A program made the position numbers and the translations under genes. Positions 12,535 through 47,800 of a DNA stretch of 64,000 nucleotides are shown here, in pieces (position 1 is the first letter of the stretch; each line of letters starts with the position of its first letter). The stretch is from Chalara sp. BL73 (taxonomy: Eukaryota > Ascomycota > Leotiomycetes > Helotiales): positions 434,001-498,000 of the forward strand of contig CAKJVC010000065.1 in NCBI GenBank assembly GCA_918026815.1, read 5' to 3'. Under the pieces are notes generated by a model. It saw only the letters and a program-made list of their open reading frames with translations. It did not search any database and had not been told where the DNA came from.

Positions 12535-14016
12535 TTACGCTATTGTGATATTGCGTATCTGCTCGACTAGCTCAGGATCCGTCAGTGCCTCGCCTTGCAT
12601 TAGGTCTTCACAGTAAGCATCCCCAATAAATTCATAATGATCGTTTGTCCCAGGAATAGGACGGAGAATGTAGCACATCCGTCCTCCAAGAAGCACCGCA
12701 ATTTTGTCTCCTATTCGGGCTCGTTGCGGACTCATACAAAGCCGTCCGCTACTGGTGAAGCACATGGCTCGGCCGAACGAGAGCCAGAGTGGTGTGAAGT
12801 ATTCATTTCCCATCAGCGAGGCGTGGACAAAACGCCCGTACCAGTACAATACCTGCTTCACCGCGAGAACCATACTCGTCAAGTGCATGGGTGTTTCAAC
12901 AACGGAGACAATGAAGTCTATCCAGATGCAGAATGCTGCCCATAGTTGGTCCAAATTGACTGGTTGGTGTCTGATGTCGGTGCCCATTGTGTTTACGAGA
13001 ATGAATCTTTTACGTTCTTTGACTGATGGTGATGTTGGGTCAACAGCTATTTCTCGCATGGCATCCTGGTACACTTGGTGATATTGCTGACAACGAAGGA
13101 ATATGGAAGCATGTGGTAAGAAATATCCACTGCAAGGAACTCCTAGGACTCCTGTGATAGTGGTCACCAGAATGCCTCCGACGATGAGGGATTTTCCATC
13201 TGCAGAGAAGCCGAGAGTTGGCGGTACACTAGTGGCAGCCTTAAACACATAACTTCCGCCGCCGTACTTGCGGTTGGACTGTCCAGTGTACGTCCAATTC
13301 GGTACCCAGGATGGCCAAGGGCCACTTGAAGAGATCGGGGCGTCATGAACGTACTCCAGAATCAGAAGATCCTGCTCGACTAGGAAAAGGCGCCGTGCAA
13401 GATCGGTAAAGATTTCGGAGTCCAGCTGCGAATAATCTGGAATGATTCCCAAAGAATCTGCATCACTGGCCACGCCGAGCAAAGAATATATTTTATCTCT
13501 AGGCTTGGATGCTCTCAGATTCATATTTCGTTGTAGAAGATAAAAGGTTGTGACCTCTTCCTTGCGATTGACGCTCAGATTTCGAATAACACCAACATTG
13601 TGTAGTTGCTGAGCAAACATCCATAACGGTGGGCCAGAAGTCGGAGGTTCTATATAACAAGATGCACTGTAACGGCGCAACAAGGACAGGAAAGGAAGTT
13701 CAGCTTCGTAGGCTAGTAGAGAACCGAAGATGATTAACATGAGAATTGGGTAACTGTAAACTCCACGCAGGATGTAACAATTATCGTTCAGGACGGTCTC
13801 TTGGAATATCCAGGACCGCAATATCCATTCTCCGGACAAAATGTTTTCGATGTTGTACCAGATTTGATCATCGTCGTTAGGTATATCGCCGAAATCCAAC
13901 AGGAACTTGGCCCATTCCACTTTACTCAGCTCCCGGCCCTGTTGATTCCGCTGTCTCAGATTGCAAAATTTCATAATGAAATCTAGTGCTGCGACATCTC
14001 CTGGCATTTCTGATCC
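12535..14016 (-). pseudogene. HET-domain gene, C-terminal part (split by hAT-like element)
   Basis: This is the 3' two-thirds of a HET gene whose 5' part is at 20256-20924. After removing the element 14025-20255 and one target copy (14017-14024), codon ATT at 20258-20256 is followed by GGA at 14016, and the frame runs uninterrupted for 717 codons. This part contributes the third HET motif (LRSWIFQETVLNDNC), the SKPRDKIYSLLGVASDADSL block, VPNWTYTGQSNRKYG and the C-terminal region ending VEQIRNITIA. HET proteins trigger heterokaryon incompatibility cell death in Pezizomycotina. No stop or frameshift is found outside the insertion. As it stands the reading frame enters the transposon and the gene must be inactive, unless the element is spliced or excised. 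Confidence 0.85.
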
Positions 14017-14024
14017 AATGTAAG

Positions 14025-14165
14025 TAGACTGCGCAGAAACCCACGGGGCGGGCCGGGGCCCCCGACCCATGGGACCCCGTGGGTCGGGTCTTCGAGGCTC
14101 GCTTCCCCCGTGGGGTGGGTTGTGTATTTTGACCCCGACCCGCGGGACCCCAATGGGGCCCCGAT
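14025..14165 (+). repeat. Left terminal and subterminal GC-rich repeat of the hAT-like element
   Basis: TAGACTGCGCAG terminus, then CACGGGGCGGGCC and several GGGACCCC/GGGGTCCC type palindromes to about 14165, where the sequence changes abruptly to AT-rich. Likely transposase-binding sites (inference). Confidence 0.75.
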
Positions 14166-14849
14166 AAAATTAACTAAATATAGAAACTACAATCAAACTC
14201 CTTTACAAGAATGTAAAGCGGACTGGTGGAATTTTAAAAATATACGAGGTATTCTAGTATCGAAATGATTCTTTCCAGTTTTGGCATTGATTTTTTTATG
14301 TGCACACAGGTTAAACAAGGCTATTTTGTATACTTGTTTTTACAAAAGTACTTGAAATGCAAAGTGGTTGATTAGTATAAAAATTAGTATAAAAATTAAA
14401 CTTCAAATGTTAAATCTAAACATATTGTAATAGAGTGGAAAAAATTGTGAATTATAATAATACAACACTAATATTCTAAAACTAATTTTTTTTTTGCTTT
14501 TTTGACCTGTGAATGCTTATTAAAGTATCCGGCACAATATTACCAATATTAGAAGTCGGAAGTCGAGGCAGCTTTTGACTACTATTACTAGATAATTCTC
14601 AGTTCGTTGTTTCAATTGACGGTTCGCGGCGATTCCTAAGTGTATTTTGAAACTGAGTAGTCGAAAGTGGCTGATTTTAATAAATTGATTGACGTAAAAA
14701 TTTAAAAATCTTGTAATCCCAGCGTTTTTAAGCACGACGAGTTCGAACTTCTTCGTTTCCTTCTGGTTCTTTATTACTAATATAGTAATGATTTTCTCAA
14801 AAATCAATTTGATCAAGTTGGACTTCAAAGTCATTTTCTCGCGTTTTAA

Positions 14850-17100
14850 TTTCCGTTTCCATATTTTCAAGTGTTATATTCTGGATATTAATAGTTGAAA
14901 ATAGTAAGTTTTGAAGCTTACGTGTTCGTGAATGTTCAACGAGCGAATAATAAACCAAAAAAAGCGACCGAATAGTTGTCGGTTGAAGCTGGCCACGGCG
15001 ATATCCGCATATATCACGTGCAAAACTAAAAGTACGTTTTACTCCAACACCGGCCATCGGAATACAAAGTAAGTCTCTAGCTATTGCTAATAAGCCAGGA
15101 AGCTGTGTTTTAAGCGATTTCCAAACAAGTAGCAGTGATCGATTATCAGGCTCTAAAAAAAACAACACAAAGATTAGTATAAAAATTAGTATAAAAAGTA
15201 GAATTGTAAACATACTCATAGCTAGCTATTCATCAATTTCAGAAAGAGAAAAGTTATTATTTTTGCGATAAAAGTTTTAAATGTCTCGAGTAAAGCGCTT
15301 GCGACTTAATGCTAATGCTAAAAGGTCGTGATTAACTTTTCGAATTTAAGAAAGTCGGTCAGCATTCGTAGACTTTTCTTTATATTCCGTATCGTATAAC
15401 GACCGAAATTGACGCTTAAATTCTTTGGCTTAATCAACTGTTTTGAAATTAAGCCAGCAATAATCTTCTTCAAAGCATTTTAGCTTCGATTTTAAATCAA
15501 GAATTGCTCCGATGCTATACAAACTACTAAGACTACTATATATTTTGTTATAGTAAGTATCAAGCTTGGCTTTTGCAGCATTAATCGCACCAATTAAATC
15601 TTTTACCCAAAGTTGAGCAACAGACTTTTTAGTTAATACTCGACGAGATTTTTGCAAGTATTCAAACAATTCATCGTAAATTAATAAAGCATAAAGCAAT
15701 GTTATACTTGTTGTTTTGCCGATTGTTGTTGTAAAAAAATTGAAAAGACGTAACAAATCGGCTAAATAGCCAAGTTTTTTCCATTTTAATGCAGAAAATG
15801 AAAAAGGCTTAGCAGAATCGTATGCACTGCAAAATTGATTGATAGACTCTTTAAAACGCAATGCACGAAAAATTATATGCACTGTTAAGTCCTATCGAGT
15901 GCATACATCAATTAACAATGTAAAAACTGGATTATTCGGAAAAAATGAATCTCTGATTTGTTTTTGTTGAACTTTTTGAAATCGATGTTTCCGCTGTGTA
16001 CTGGAATTAACAAGAATAGCAAGCTTTCGAATCTAATATAAGATTAGTATAAAAATTAGTATAAAAGTCACGTGTTACATACTTTTGCTAGTATATATAA
16101 AATACTACGTTTGTTACTAGCTTTAATTCTCTCAAAATCAGACAGCTCTTTTTCTGCTACTCAATTCCGAACAAATGTGTCGTTAGTAAGCTTTAATTGA
16201 ACAAAGCTCAAAAGTGCTTAAAGACTAAACTGAATTACATGCGATAAACACGGCACGTGTTAGACTTTCTTTTTCAGAATACTATTAGCTTTTAAAGCTT
16301 TTTGTAAATACTCGTTAATTTCGAGAACTATTATAGTATTCGAATTCGCATTATCAGTTGTAATTGAAACAACACGATTAAAAAAATTGTACTGTTGAAA
16401 AACGTTATTAACAATTTAAGCAAGCGCATTTCCGGAATGAACGTTTACTAAACTTTCAAATTTTATTAATTCTTGACAAAGAACTCATGACTTATTAATA
16501 TAGTGAGCTATTATACCTATAAATAATAGTCTTGTTGTACTAAACTAGCAATCGAGAGAAATTGCAATTTTGTTTTTAGGAACAATATTTGAAAGCATGT
16601 TTTGTTCAAGTTTGACTGATTGTTTTATCAGTCGATTCTTTATAGTTGTTGCAGAAAAAAGTTCGAAATTTGGATTTTGCATAACAGCTAACTTTTTCTA
16701 TTCAGGATTTTCGACTGCGCGGAAAGAAGTACGAAGTGAAATAATAGTTGCAAAAACCTGGTCGTAAAATGCTTGCTTCGTAAAAATTAGTTGCTATTAA
16801 TATTAGACATTATACTAATATTTATACTAATTTACTTACAGAAATAGCGTGAAACATGTTTTTCACTTTTTTTTGCTTTGTATTACTTTAGCTAGAATAA
16901 ACAAAGTATTGCCGAAACGCTATATAACTAAACAAAGCTTTTGTGCCGGTATTTCGCGTATTTAGATGTGCGAGAACTTTGTTGCAGTTTTGACATATGA
17001 CTTTAAGCTTTCCGGTAATCCGGTGTATTCTTTGATCGAATTGTTTCTAAGTAATAAATTTTCGATTTTGAAATTTCTAATTTAATTGCTTTACTAAATC
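14850..17100 (-). pseudogene. hAT transposase, decayed multi-exon gene
   Basis: C-terminal exon from 15152 reads EPDNRSLLLVWKSLKTQLPG, LLAIARDLLCIPMAGVG and KRTFSFARDICGYRRGQLQP: the hATC dimerisation domain with the SIP..G.ERTFS-type core. An intron 15215-15153 (GTATG...TTTTTTAG) precedes it. The 15882-15430 stretch (ALKWKKLGYLADLLRLFNFF; SSLYSIGAILDLKSKLKCFE) is the region before hATC. Near 17000 the minus strand reads GKLKVICQNCNKVLAHLNTR followed by NTGTKALFSYI, a BED-type zinc-finger N-terminus. Stops interrupt all parts (for example TAA after WLNFKTVD), so the enzyme is dead. No complete copy is in the window that could mobilise it. Confidence 0.75.
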
Positions 17101-17479
17101 AATTGATTAGTTTGCAACTGCTTAAACTGCTTATTGTGTATTTAACTACTATTTAACAAACTTATCGTGATATTCAAGTTCTTATCGAAAATATAGGTTT
17201 TTTGGACTAATTTGCGAAAATAGTAAATTGTCAAAAGTATTTGACTTAAATAAGCTGAAAAGATCAGAAAAGTCTTGCGAATTACTTGACTTTATAGCAA
17301 CAAAAGTGTGCAAGTAAAAAAAAAAGCATCAAATCGGAAAAAAAAAACAAGTATTTAAACACAAGTTAAATTACTACTTTAAAAAAATTGTATATATTAA
17401 AGGCTATAATTAAACTTCCAAAAATTAATGTAAAATATAATGATTAGTATAAAGATTAGTATAAAATTGAATATATTTG

Positions 17480-18760
17480 CTTAAAGTTCTTTGCTTTATT
17501 TGTTGTATATACTTAAAAACTACATATACATTTACAGCTTACGCGGCTTTTGAAAGCTGCTTTGTAAACCAAAGAATACTTTAACGATTGTTTAACTTAA
17601 AGAATTGTCTGTTATTAAAAACAAATCATTATAAGCGAAGAAAATACGTTCGTATGATTTATTTTCCGGAATTTCCGTAGCATATACTATATCAAACGCT
17701 TTTTTATAGCTTGTCAACGAATCGGAAAAGCCGAATTCTGTATTATTTAACTTATCGTCGGCTGGCTACCAATTTGCAGGGCCCGGCAGATCGATTTACT
17801 TTTCATTTCCGTATGCTTATACTGCAAGATTTTTTCAAATTGCTTTTTTTTTTTGAGTAAAGTATTTTTCAGGAGTTTTATACGTATAGAATTTGCTATA
17901 TCAGTTAGCAGATTAGTATAAAAATTAGTAGAATTTTGTACTTTTTGTAAATGTAAAAACAGCTTGTTTTTTCTAAGTATTTCTGTCTACTAGCAGCAAA
18001 CTTTCGGATTTTGCAGAACAAAAATCGACGGCTTCGGCGCTATTTTTTTTGCCAAAACTTAAATTCAAGCTTTTTGGCATCCTGAAATTGTATTAGCGTT
18101 ATACGAATTATTATATTAATCTGAAACTTATTAAAATGGATCGTTTATGCTTAGCAATCCCGTTATTTTTCAATTCTTTAGCAGATTTGCCGACAACTGC
18201 TTTATTACCGTTTTGCTTTTTATTCAATTTTTATATATGCTTAAACTCGTATTCGTTTTCCGATTTATACTTAATATTTTTTTATGCTGGATTTCCATTA
18301 TTATCAATTGCATATAAGCCACTAATTTCTTTATAACTCAAAGCTTTTGCCACAGATTTCTAATTTTTGCTATTTCGTTTACTATACAAGTTAGTATAAA
18401 AATTAGTATAATTAAAATTAAACGAACCGCTTTGTTTTAACTTGTAAAGCAGACTGCTCAATTATTCGCTTCTGCTCGGCAAAAAATGCGAGTGCAAATT
18501 CAGTAGACTTTTTGAAGACTTTTTTTCTGTATGTAATTGCTGCTTGATCTGCGGCTTTCGCTTTTTCGATCTGATTTTGAATACTGTTGCTTTTTATAGC
18601 TTCAAGTTTTTTTCTAGCTTTAACAGTATGCATATTAGTAGAAAAACTGCCCGGAGATTTGCGCTTGCGTTTATTGGAAAAACCGATTTGCTGCGAGGAA
18701 TCAAGATTTATATTAAATTTATAATCTGAATTATTAGAAATGACAATAATATTCTTGAAA
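17480..18760 (-). pseudogene. Unknown basic protein gene of the hAT-like element
   Basis: The minus strand is readable from about 18745: INLDSSQQIGFSNKRKRKSP with an NLS-like KRKRK, then MHTVKARKKLEAIKSNSI, YRKKVFKKSTEFALAFFAEQ and EQSALQVKTKR. A GTTCGT...TATAG intron (about 18424-18378) holding the TACTAAT doublet leads to a continuing frame with SYKEISGLYAIDNNGNPA and KSAKELKNNGIAKHKRSI, interrupted by TAG and TAA codons at apparent Gln positions. It is Lys-rich and probably nuclear. It is transcribed away from the H3 gene, with about 500 bp of shared upstream sequence. Family unknown; it may be an accessory transposon protein. Confidence 0.5.
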
Positions 18761-19359
18761 CCGATTAGTATACAAATTAATATAATATTTTAATAAAAAT
18801 TACTTAAGAAAGCTGCTTTTCGAAAAGTAAAGCTATATTGGAAAGTAACGCAACCGAAAAGTAGGCGTATTTTGCAAATTTCAACTCGCAAGAACTAGAG
18901 CTTCAAAAATTAGTATAAAGATTAATATAATACACTAAAAACACGTATTGCGATAAATGTTTGACTTTGTTCAGATTTAATAAATTGGTGCAAAAAGAAT
19001 AAATGAGAGAAAAGTACGCGTTATCCTGAAAAATAAAGCAGTCGCGTTTTTATGCCTCGATTTTAAGGCACTCAACTACTTTTTTCAAACCTGACTTTTT
19101 TTAACTTTCAATTAAATTTACTAACAACTACACTATACACAAGTATGTATTATATTTATCTTTTTTATATTTTATTTTTATATTAATTATTATACTAATT
19201 CTTTATAGTTTTCTCGTCGAAATCACAAAGCTATAATTTCAATTTCACGTGTTAATATTCACATTCACTTTCACCTTTTCTAAAAAAAATTTGCGACTTT
19301 GCACAGGTATATATCATTCTGTATTATACTAATATTTATTCTAATCTTAATAAGTTACA

Positions 19360-19909
19360 ATAGCACGTACCAAGAAAATAGCTACTAAATTTGCTCGCAA
19401 ACTTTCTGTTAAAACTTTTGCTAAAACCTTTGCTAAAACCTCTGCTAAAACCTCTGCAAAAGCTGTACCAAAAAAGAAATATCGATTGAAACCTGGCAGT
19501 AAGTTGATTAATATAATAATTAGTATAAAACTAACATTTAAACGTAGCTAAAGCACTTAGAGAAATCAAACGATACTAAAAAAGCACTGAGCTTTTAATC
19601 CTAAAAGCTCCATTTACTCGACTAGTTAAAGAAATAATGTATAATATTACGTCTCGACACGCATTTCGCATTCAATTTAGTGTTTTACAATGTCTTCAAA
19701 AAGCCGCAGAATCTGCTTTAGTAACTGAGTTCGAGCGTAAGTTATTTCATATAAATACATTATACTAATATTTATACTAATATTACTTTAAAGTCACAAA
19801 TCTTGCCGCAATCCACGCTAAGAAAGTTACTATTCAAGTAAAGGATATGCATTTGGTTCAAAGAATAAAAGAGAGAATGACGGGCTACAAGTACCCAGGC
19901 CGGTGTTAA
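19360..19909 (+). pseudogene. Histone H3 variant gene inside the hAT-like element
   Basis: Three exons, 19360-19498, 19548-19736 and 19794-19909, with GTAAGT...AG introns of 49 and 57 bp and exact phase agreement (147 codons plus stop). Core histone-fold motifs are unmistakable: KYRLKPG, ALREIKRY, KSTELLI, APFTRLVKEI, LQKAAESALVTEFE and TNLAAIHAKKVTIQVKDMHL, then a C-terminal tail RMTGYKYPGRC. The tail starts ARTK, then continues KIATKFARKLS, which resembles H3 residues 19-29, and has a KT.A repeat block. The start codon is ATA instead of ATG and the Gln of RYQKS is TAA, both CpA-to-TpA type changes, so this copy is dead. Loop 1 seems two residues longer than in canonical H3, a CenH3-like trait. 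Cargo of a DNA transposon, not a host locus. Confidence 0.85.
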
Positions 19910-20114
19910 AGAATCAAACGCAGTTTATACAAAGGAAATGGGTTAAACAATGAAGTTATTAAAAGTATACACGCTAGCGATAGGGCGCTAAGCACATAAT
20001 AAAATTCACAAACCAAAATTTTAATACGTTTATGTCGCGTAGCTTTTTGATTAGTAGGCTTATTAGTATAACTTCTCTAACTGTACAGCAACTATTGTAA
20101 TGTCACGTGTAAAT

Positions 20115-20255
20115 GTAATGGGTGCTTGGCACCCCATCAAGACCCCATGGGGTGGGGTGGGTGCTTTTGATAGACCCCAACCCATGGGGTGGGACCCCGA
20201 CGGGTGGGGTCAAGTAGGTGAAAACCCGCCCCGTGGGACCCCAGTTCGCAGTCTA
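20115..20255 (-). repeat. Right terminal and subterminal GC-rich repeat of the hAT-like element
   Basis: Inverted counterpart of 14025-14165: ACCCCATGGGGTGGGG-type palindromes followed by CCCGCCCCGTG and the terminus CGCAGTCTA. Confidence 0.75.
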
Positions 20256-20924
20256 AATGTAAGTTACCACCCGCTCCGCTGTCTTGTAGATCTCGGCCAT
20301 CATCTGTACTTGTTTCGCCTTCTCTTTCTCGTCTTCCTGATTAATGCAAATTTGATCCACCCAGATGACACCCACGAATCGATTGGCATGCGTCAATCCC
20401 AAATCTTTGGAAGCGCCCTTCCGAAGGTCCCTGAGCAGACTGTCCAGCGATGCCGTCAACGGAATGTACTGGTCCTCACCGACTAGCAGCTGGAAGGGTT
20501 GATAGTTGTCTCCCCAAACATAAGAGATGGCAGTATAGGGACTGTAGGATGAAAGGGGAACAGTTTCTATGATACCACATAACGGCTCGTCACGATTTTG
20601 AGACACAACGAGGCGCAATCTCCTAATTTCTCTTGGCCTGAGTGGATCGTATCTGAATTTCTGGCGCGGCTGGGGTCGTTGCTTTGAAGGCAACTGCTCT
20701 ATAACCACTGATCTCAGATTTGAGTTCGGAGCCGGCAGAGAACTTGATCTCTGGTTCCTCGAAGATGCGAGCCTCATCCAGTATCCGCTAGGAGGTGTTG
20801 AAATGCTGGATATCTTTGGTCGAGTATCAACAAAGTGGAGTCTTCCACGTTCCTCCATTACTTCTAATTTAAAGATGGGAAGGCTTAGCGACGCACAAAC
20901 TCGATCAAAAGTTGAGCCTCGCAA
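20256..20924 (-). pseudogene. HET-domain gene, N-terminal part (split by hAT-like element)
   Basis: 223 codons with the first two HET motifs: YSPYTAISYVWGDNYQPF and VIWVDQICINQEDEKEKAKQ, then VQMMAEIYKTAERVVTYI, where the element interrupts; the next residues GSEMPGDVAALDF are at 14016. The ATG at 20924 is the longest start; an ATG 22 codons later (MEERGRLHF) is also plausible. Both halves together would give 716 residues, a normal HET protein length. Flanks show no RIP-like decay. Confidence 0.85.
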
Positions 20925-21180
20925 GAGATAGAGGAAGACCTATTTCTCGCTGCCAGCCTTGTCACGTGGCGAAGCCGGACGGAGGGTTGTCTCCGCAACG
21001 GGATTAGGTCTGTCCCGAGCCCAAACAAGCTTCGATTGGCGACATCCTTGTTGTTCTTTCCGCTACAACATCGTGGTTTTGTTTCCCTCCATGTGTCCAG
21101 CGAGCATATCAGACGAAGTGCACTATGAGCAGCTCGTCCGACTAGCCGCAGTTCAGCACGTAACATCACTCCTCCAAGCC

Positions 21181-44669: not shown

Positions 44670-44885
44670 TAGTCTGTGCTTCGTACGATTTCTGGCATTC
44701 ACTTTGCCAAATGTCGCACCACAATCGCGAACGCTCATTGGTTCGCCTAGCTAGGACCTTGGAACTGGCCATGGTTACATAAGGGCAGTTCCAGCAGTAG
44801 TTACACCTTTTCTCTTTAGTTTAGAATCTTCGTATTTGATACTTTACAAACAGCTGTAGTCGGCGCCTGTATTGGGATCGTGACA
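44670..44885 (+). repeat. LTR family E copy fused to the 3' end of the NLR gene
   Basis: GCGAACGCTCATTGGTTCGC, GGCAGTTCCAGCAGTAGTTA and GGGATCGTGACA match family E at 7775-7981; the 5' end is diverged. Its right end (44885) meets the NLR repeat array directly, so the NLR stop codon and last ~21 codons come from LTR sequence. Confidence 0.8.
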
Positions 44886-47800
44886 AAAACGTCATCACTT
44901 TCTTCCCACTCCCCTGATTCCCTGCCGCTGCCTTCGCCACCTCTTCTGTAATCACCACGTCTGACCCTCGTTTCTTAAGCAAAAGTGTCATCACTTCTTT
45001 CCCACTCCACTCATTCCCCGCCGCTGCTTTCACTACCTCTTCCGTAATTACCACGTTCTCCCCTCGCTTCTTAAACAAAAGCATCATCACCTCTTTCCCA
45101 CTCTGCCCATTCCCCGCCGCTGCTTTCACCACCTTTTCCGTAATTACCACGTTCTCCCCTCGCTTCTCAAACAAAAGCATCATTACTTCTTTCCCACTCC
45201 AAGGGTTCCCCGCCGCTGCTTTCACCACCTCTTCCGTAATCACCACGTTTTTCTCTCGCTTCTCAAACAAAAGCATCATTACTTCTTTCCCACTCCAAGG
45301 GTTCCCCGCCGCTGCTTTCAGCACCTCTTCCGTAATTACCACGTTTTTCTCTCGCTTCTCAAACAAAAGCATCATTACTTCTTTCCCACTCCAAAGGTTC
45401 CCCGCCGCTGCTTTCACCACCTCTTCCGTAATCACCACGTTCTCCCCTCGCTTCTTAAACAAAAGCATCATCACCTCTTTCCCACTCTGCCAATTCCCCG
45501 CCGCTGCTTTCACCACCTCTTCCGTAATCACCACGTCTTCTTCTCGCTTCTTAAACAAAAGCATCATCACCTCTTTCCCACTCTGCCCATTCCCCGCCGC
45601 TGCTTTCACCACTTCCTCTGTAATCACCACGTCTGACCCTTGTTTCTCAAGCAAAAGTGTCATCACCTTTTTCCCACTCTGCCCATTCCCCGCCGCTGCT
45701 TTCACCACCTCCTCTGTAATCACCACGTCTGCCACTCGTTTCTCAAGCAAAAGCGTCATCACCTCTTTCCCACTCTCCAAGTTCCCCGCCGCTGCCTTCA
45801 CCACCTCTTCTGTAATCATCACATCTGCCCCTCGTTTCTCAAGCAAAAGCGCCATCACCTTTTCCCCAAATCTACCTGCAATTGCTTTCAACGCCTTTTC
45901 CGTAATCACCACGTTCTCCTTTCGCTTCTCAAGTAAAAGCATCATTACTTCTTTCCCACTGATAGAGTTCCCCGCCGCTGCCTTCACTACTTTTTCCGTA
46001 ATTACTACATCTGACCCTCGTTTTTCAAGCAAAAGCGCCATTACCTTTTTCCCACTTTGCCCATTCCCCGCCGCTGCTCTCACCACCTCCTCTGTAATCA
46101 CTATATCCGACCCTTGCTTCTCAAGCAAAAGTATCATCACTTCTTTCCCACTCCACTCATTCTCCGCCGCTGCTTTCACCACTTTTTCTGTAATCACTAT
46201 ATCCGACCCTTGCTTTTTAAGCAAAAGCATCATCACTTCTTTCCCACTCCACTCATTCCCCGCCGCTGCTTTCACCACTTCTTCTGTAATCACTACGTCT
46301 GCCACTCGTTTCTCAAGCAAAAGCGTCATCACCTCTTTCCCACTCTCCAAGTTCCCTGCCGCTGCCTTCACCACCTCTTCTGTAATCATCACATCTGCCC
46401 CTCGTTTCTCAAGCAAAAGCGTCATCACCTTTTTCCCAAACCTACCTGCAATTGCTTTCACCACCTTTTCCGTAATCACCATATCTGACCCTCGTTTCTC
46501 AAGCAAAAGTATCATTACCTCTTTCCCACTTATAAAGTTCCCCGCCGCTGCCTCCACCACCTCTTCCGTAATCGCCCCGTCTGCCTTTAAGAATAATGTA
46601 AATACCTTTTCGGCATTCCTTTGTATCTCCCTTGCAATTCGACGTAAATCGGCAATGCTTCTAATATTTTCGTAATACTTCCCTAAACATTCAACGATTT
46701 CCGAATGCCCACGAATAGCTGCTGCATTACATGCATTCCCATGGGCACCCTCCATTGTAATTCGACAACCTTTCTCCAACAGATTCTTCACCGTCATTTG
46801 AAGTCCAAGTAAAGAAGCGTAATATAGCGGCTGAGGATAGCCTGTTTTTGGTTTCCTGTTAAACTGAAGTCTGTTATCAGGGTCATGGATATTAAGCCAC
46901 GCAGCATATCTCGGAGAATGATCAGTACTAAACAGCAAGTCAATCTGGGCTTGCAATCCCGATGTGATACTAGAATCGTCAGAGTTAAAAGCTTCGACGG
47001 CATGCTGCGGCCAGAACTCCGCGGAATACTCGAGCAAGGAGAGTGGCATGACCCTTTTCTCAAGTCGAATCAACTCATCTGGATCCAGGAGATACGTAAC
47101 TGTCATCTCAGAAACCACAGCTTGCGCTAGCTCAATTTTAAATCTGTACGGTGAGGGCAATTCCCGTTCTTGCGTGGTGAGAATCAAGTATTCTTTAACG
47201 GAGAAATGGGCGAGCTTGATGGTCTGGCTGACTTTTTTGTCAGTTAGCGTTTCGACAACCTGGTTGACTTCTTCGTCAATTAGCGTTACAAGAAGGCTAC
47301 TACACAGTTCTAGAACGTCTTGAGCGAACGGGAAAGAGACCACTGCAGAAATTTCTTCTAGTGCCATAGGTCGAAAAGATGAAGTTAGCCACATTAGGAT
47401 TTTTTGCGCGGGTTTCTCGTCTTTAGCTGGGATTTTTCGAAGCACTTCCTCGTAGGTTTTCTCAAGACTCTCGGGGACTGTTTTTAAAGCTGTGATAAGC
47501 TCTGGTTTCGTTCTACACGAATACAAACGTTTGATCTGTAAATCTGCCCAGCGAAATCGTCTAACAGCTTGTTAGCCTGATTTTATTTCTTTTAGTCGAA
47601 GTAGTTAACATGCGTTTCATTAACTGCAGTGAGTTTTTCTTTAATTTGAGATTTTGAGTCTTCATTCCACCGACTTAATTTTGAGTTTTCGCGTAAAGCA
47701 GTTTCAACAAATAGCTCGATATCTTTCCCAAATTGATCTTCTATATTCATAGCAACAGTAAGTGGTTCTTTTAGCTTGTTATCGATATCCGGCTCCCGTC

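Follow-up and report, generated by a model that had tools for sequence, protein, structure and literature searches.

A dead copy of a probable three-gene hAT transposon family with a divergent histone H3-like gene in the fungus Chalara sp. BL73

A mutated hAT copy and its genes

The stretch of Chalara sp. BL73 DNA analyzed here (the window, 64,000 nucleotides) contains a hAT transposon copy that lies within a HET-domain gene and in which all three element genes are dead (Table 1). With a probability of roughly three in four, we regard it as an RIP-like-mutated copy of a hAT family that encodes a transposase, a central protein and a divergent histone H3-like protein, here called H3L. An earlier note, made from the sequence of the window, had described matched hAT termini and an 8-bp target duplication, and these borders are borne out by the presence of TAGACTGCG at both ends and of AATGTAAG on both flanks. 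When the two flanks of the element are joined by script, one open frame of the HET-domain gene is restored across the insertion site.

Table 1. Features of the transposon copy and its insertion site, in window positions
Feature	Position	Strand	State or basis
hAT transposon, copy mutated RIP-like	14025-20255	.	6231 bp; termini and 8-bp duplication
Left target-site duplication AATGTAAG	14017-14024	.	flank comparison
Right target-site duplication AATGTAAG	20256-20263	.	flank comparison
Left terminal inverted repeat TAGACTGCG, 9 bp	14025-14033	+	starts at the first base of the element
Right terminal inverted repeat, reverse complement of TAGACTGCG	20247-20255	-	ends at 20255
HET-domain gene, upstream part	20264-20939	-	PF06985, E 8.4e-19
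HET-domain gene, downstream part	12535-14016	-	frame continuity; no Pfam match of its own
Histone H3-like gene H3L	19360-19909; exons 19360-19498, 19548-19736, 19794-19909	+	147 aa where open
hAT transposase	14482-17295; exons 16840-17295, 16083-16793, 15216-16032, 14482-15152	-	dead; L031 model
Central ORF	17532-18836; exons 18804-18836, 18428-18753, 18132-18381, 17942-18081, 17532-17895	-	dead; L031 model

H3L is located near the right end of the element, on the strand opposite to that of the transposase and the central gene, and its exons are separated by two introns (19499-19547 and 19737-19793), both bounded by GT..AG. The spliced protein of the window, with X at the stop, matches the Pfam family Histone (PF00125) with an E-value of 1.1e-25, and a version spliced by eye, which has other residues at both junctions, does so with an E-value of 4.7e-25; for the open H3L protein the value is 8.7e-30, and H3 chains in the PDB are matched with a best E-value of 3.9e-33. 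The Pfam match and the intron borders confirm, almost to the base, the spliced frame with a full H3 fold that the earlier note had placed here, and the copy is dead, as had been claimed: H3L has ATA in place of ATG and a single in-frame TAA, in exon 2. That the H3-like gene is real, and not a chance resemblance, is confirmed by 32 DNA matches to the H3 stretch in the genome, with the best other copies 95% identical.

The exons of the transposase (884 amino acids where open in other copies) and of the central ORF (370 amino acids where open in other copies) were obtained by mapping the model from copy L031 to the window, the last exon ends being derived from exon length. In this model reading the window genes contain 24 and 10 stops, respectively, and the central ORF also lacks its ATG. 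The transposase has a Pfam match above the cut-off to the dimerization domain Dimer_Tnp_hAT (PF05699, E 1.5e-09) and one to hAT-like_RNase-H that falls under its cut-off; a CxxC..H..C stretch can be recognized by eye, and no Pfam BED match was obtained at E<=1. A match to PF05699 on an exon of the window itself (E 7.1e-07) agrees with the earlier observation that hAT transposase exons adjoin the H3 gene. The central protein matched no Pfam family at E<=1 and yielded nothing credible in the PDB, where the best match had an E-value of 0.83; it contains a stretch, DIIVISDDSD, which we take to resemble a SUMO-interacting motif.

Elsewhere in the window, positions 44884-46585 contain a tandem array in which a 96-base unit is repeated about 18 times (83% matching, with strong GC skew); judged by eye, it may represent the repeats of an NLR-like gene.

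Copies of the family and their state

The 58.7-Mb genome (199 contigs) was searched for further copies, and all locus counts given here are lower bounds. The matches to the H3 stretch were counted as 30 loci, because match pairs on contigs C62 and C114 look like single copies split by insertion. Among the 29 loci outside the window, 20 were fetched at 5-8 kb and the other nine were seen as 1.8-3.6 kb around H3. The earlier note had asked whether such H3 matches lie between termini, and this is the case at 18 of the 20 fetched loci, as it is in the window: each has both termini and its own perfect 8-bp duplication, different from those of the others, and the 18 elements measure 6208-6235 bp. 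A single terminus was found in the other two, L039, which runs to the contig end, and L047, where the region matching the element starts 114 bases inward of the other end. The elements display 8-bp duplications, short inverted termini (TAGACTGCG) and a C-terminal hAT dimerization domain, all features of the hAT superfamily. Elements of this superfamily are known to be moved by a hAT transposase, and for the present family such transposition is supported by the target duplications.

Since the fetched loci had been picked by their H3 match, the presence of H3 in all of them is not independent evidence that the gene belongs to the element. The independent test was a search with the central protein, for which all 85 of the 85 candidates were scored. 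The central ORF is present at at least 30 loci, with H3L close by at 29 of the 30, and the transposase is present at at least 25 (51 of 149 candidates scored), with H3L close by at 24 of the 25. The exception is the same in both searches, L053 (C53:16500-18100), the only locus without H3L; this copy breaks off within the central ORF and therefore lacks H3L and the right end. One H3 locus, at the end of contig C135, is without a central-ORF match, and six are without a transposase match among the matches listed. These counts support the proposal of the earlier note that H3 is cargo, in that H3L is a standing component of the hAT family and not a one-off insertion. The opposite explanation, in which a host H3 gene was inserted by chance into the window copy alone, as a retrocopy or a segmental insertion, has a negligible probability, given the association with the central ORF at 29 of 30 loci and the position inside both termini at 18 of 20; moreover, H3L is just 53% identical to host H3 at the DNA level and has no intron position in common with it, so that copy number, introns and divergence together rule out such an event. 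A search for relatives in viral contigs produced 14 stretches that fit a pattern, 0 of which encode a relative.

The 18 complete fetched loci and the window were aligned, giving 19 copies of different age. Fourteen of these form one group, within which 13 are mutually 0-8 substitutions apart and L031 is 36-42 substitutions from those 13. Between L033 and any of L034, L035, L048 and the window copy there are 257-380 substitutions, the majority of them C to T or G to A; L036 is at most 2 substitutions from L035. By context, mutation rates in the coding regions amount to 0.20 (CA), 0.18 (CT), 0.12 (CC) and 0.02 (CG), a pattern that is RIP-like but shows no strong preference for CA such as classic RIP has. 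Together, the RIP-like changes and the interrupted HET-domain gene suggest a filamentous ascomycete as host.

The H3L frame begins with ATG and is open in four of the 19 aligned copies (L031-L034), is open save for an ATA start in three, has both ATA and a stop in one (the window) and is shifted in 11, all of which belong to the recent burst. The transposase is open in three copies and the central ORF in eight, and L031 is the sole copy in which all three are open; intact copies, which the earlier note had suggested looking for, are therefore present, with several open H3L frames and one fully open element. Within the burst group the remaining differences are mostly one-base homopolymer indels, contrary to the substitution pattern, and their position and pattern suggest that the homopolymer frameshifts are assembly errors. 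The number of SAKT repeats in the H3L tail also varies between copies: exon 1 of the older copies L026, L027 and L028 is 12 bases, or one SAKT unit, shorter than in the other aligned copies.

The H3-like protein and selection on the element genes

A genome search with canonical H3 returned one host H3, one CenH3, the present family and two tail-only matches. The tail of H3L begins with MARTK, so that ARTK is kept, and includes four SAKT units, (SAKT)4; the ARKS motif, which occurs twice in host H3 (K9 and K27), is found 0 times in H3L. Compared with H3, loop 1 has two additional residues. H3L shares the stretch ALQCLQEAAE with S. pombe Cnp1, and its C-terminus, MTGYKYPGRC, does not resemble that of H3. 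Over the core, H3L is identical to host H3 at 62-63 of 97 positions (the borders vary slightly), to host CenH3 at 56 of 97 and to Cnp1 at 59 of 97; host H3 and host CenH3 themselves share 69 of 95. This comparison identifies H3L as an H3 on a long branch, not as a CenH3. Furthermore, on the chaperone side H3L and host H3 have VTIQ in common where the two CenH3s (host and Cnp1) have VTIM, which suggests an ascomycete-type H3 as the probable source, and H3L lacks the tryptophan that both CenH3s have. Simple capture of a CenH3 as the origin of H3L is rejected, the core being nearer to H3.

The divergence from the host gene extends to the DNA, where only nine of 29 fourfold silent sites match, although differing base composition (43% GC in H3L, 55% in host H3) may account for part of this low silent-site identity. 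The introns follow codon positions 46.3 and 109.3 in H3L and 8.3 and 127.7 in host H3. The comparison supports the view that H3L has probably moved a long way from host H3 in sequence without losing its histone fold or reading frame, and the retention of the fold despite such divergence suggests that the protein may have retained a role.

A direct test of selection is available in the comparison of L031 with L033, two lineages free of the RIP-like mutation, in which silent and amino-acid changes number 12:4 in the transposase, 6:1 in the central ORF and 1:0 in H3L. The pooled ratio of 19:5 departs from a neutral amino-acid-changing share of 0.75, a value of our choosing, with p = 4e-8. Since H3L contributes a single silent change, this test rests on the other two genes, and for the transposase and the central ORF the signal of selection is strong. 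As a control, the four RIP-like copies have silent to amino-acid ratios of 89:511 in the transposase and 45:239 in the central ORF.

In the same RIP-like copies the ratio for H3L is 33:54, an amino-acid-changing share of 0.621 compared with a context expectation of 0.744 (p = 0.013), in a test that counts sites common to several copies repeatedly. The context model is rough, since it misfits the other two genes in the opposite direction, both lying above expectation (0.852 versus 0.787, p = 7.8e-5; 0.842 versus 0.757, p = 6.7e-4). When each site with an RIP-type change is counted once, H3L has 20:32 and the other two genes 75:413 (Fisher p = 1.6e-4), and among RIP-type changes private to one copy the numbers are 10:19 and 38:208 (p = 0.018). 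As a sign of selection on H3L, this lower share of amino-acid changes is only suggestive.

The two tail-only matches lie in long open frames. One, in an 879-aa frame, covers H3 tail residues 2-31 with 83% identity (C11:141494-141583, E 2.9e-7); the other, in a 382-aa frame, is a weak match of 70% to residues 1-23 (C59:236726-236794, E 0.086). Both frames are possible histone tail mimics.

Described relatives and a possible role for H3L

The earlier note had stated that no fungal hAT family with its own H3 was described, a claim contradicted by two reports. According to Manning et al. 2013 (PMC3538342), the genome of P. tritici-repentis (Ptr) contains a hAT element of about 5.6 kb with a full transposase, a central ORF of unknown function and an H3L, present as 10 near-identical copies, beside 16 short copies of 2.3 kb; ESTs exist for its H3L, which falls in neither H3 nor CenH3, and the authors consider drift for this gene and raise the question of whether altered chromatin favoured multiplication of the transposons. 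By description, the Ptr element resembles the present one in having a hAT transposase with a dimerization domain, a central ORF and an H3L between terminal inverted repeats, in its many near-identical copies and in the altered tail of its H3L; the central ORF likewise precedes the transposase on the same strand, as can be deduced from a chimera described in PMC3538342. The differences are its smaller size (compared with 6.2 kb here), its short copies, none of which occurs among the 20 loci fetched here, and the little RIP reported for it, whereas the older copies of the present family carry clear RIP-like changes. On the basis of their like gene content, it is plausible that the two elements descend from the same capture.

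According to Dhillon et al. 2019 (PMC6710886), H3-carrying hATs occur in six Mycosphaerellaceae; their H3 is intronless where examined and inactivated in all extra copies, and the elements show no similarity to that of Ptr. Those of Pseudocercospora, Cercospora and Sphaerulina share with the present family the hAT affiliation, terminal inverted repeats, 8-bp duplications, an H3-like cargo and copies rich in C to T and G to A changes. However, the P. fijiensis element is about 9.5 kb long with one or two intronless H3 pieces and no dimerization domain found, all extra copies are dead and the CA bias is strong, whereas the present H3L has two introns and is open in some copies, and CA and CT rates are similar (0.20, 0.18). 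No further H3-carrying hAT was recognized by title or abstract start in the open-licence literature, outside which other reports may exist, and the passages of PMC4994206 merely cite Manning et al. The H3-carrying hAT architecture is therefore already known, and the present family adds a further genome with one; it combines open frames and a recent burst with a tail that lacks both ARKS motifs.

A mode of action can be proposed from these features. H3L would be made together with the other element proteins and, as its kept fold suggests for translation and assembly, would pair with host H4 and enter nucleosomes on or near the element. Lacking both ARKS motifs, it would be unable to carry the usual methyl marks at K9 and K27, so that the chromatin of the element would stay more accessible for transcription and transposition. 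From what is generally known of the methylating enzymes, loss of the ARKS motifs would block methylation of K9 and K27. We consider such an anti-silencing role the most likely mode of action, although our preference for it is tentative. The wider scenario, in which an H3 kept by selection without the K9 and K27 motifs would form nucleosomes, either on the element or in the host genome, that escape the usual silencing and so let the hAT family burst although the fungus otherwise mutates repeated sequences, appears doubtful at present.

The proposal has to be weighed against a passenger explanation, in which H3L was captured on a single occasion and has since been carried between the termini without a function for the element. 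In keeping with this, the H3L frame is shifted as assembled in 11 of the 19 aligned copies, H3 cargo is dead in all extra copies in the six Mycosphaerellaceae as described in PMC6710886, and drift has been suggested for the Ptr gene in PMC3538342. Against it, H3L agrees with host H3 at 62 of 97 core residues although only nine of 29 fourfold silent sites match, the open copies keep start, splice sites and frame, and H3L accompanies the central ORF at 29 of 30 loci; we consider this explanation only slightly less likely than the anti-silencing role. It is improbable that H3L follows instead a CenH3-like route, in which the longer loop 1 and a changed α2 would give it a different chaperone or a different site of deposition, such as centromeric chromatin. 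Fungal CenH3s (that of the host, in L052, and S. pombe Cnp1) do resemble H3L in their longer loop 1, and ALQCLQEAAE is the same in Cnp1, but the H3L core is nearer to host H3 (63/97) than to host CenH3 (56/97), the CenH3 tryptophan is missing, VTIQ is present in place of VTIM, and the tail starts with MARTK as in H3.

A mobile element with its own histone would represent an unusual tactic against genome defence. With a fold kept at strong divergence, lost marks and clear gene models, the present family makes testable the question raised by Manning et al. 2013 (PMC3538342), namely whether an H3 of this kind is under selection and whether altered chromatin contributed to the spread of their elements.

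The element also contains a repeated motif. The 9-mer TATACTAAT occurs, on either strand, 20 times in the 6.2-kb copy L031, compared with 0.1 expected (maximum 2 in 300 first-order simulations); in the window copy its occurrences lie within 14371-20070, and two more are found in the window outside the element. Some occurrences lie within introns, where either orientation is seen, and others are intergenic. A paired motif, TATACTAATNNNTATACTAAT, has 180 genomic occurrences, compared with 0 for the reversed control, and, among the matches listed, all but two lie inside known element copies, the two others being at C9:1384442 and C9:1826263. The distribution of these motifs may indicate an introner-like or regulatory nature.
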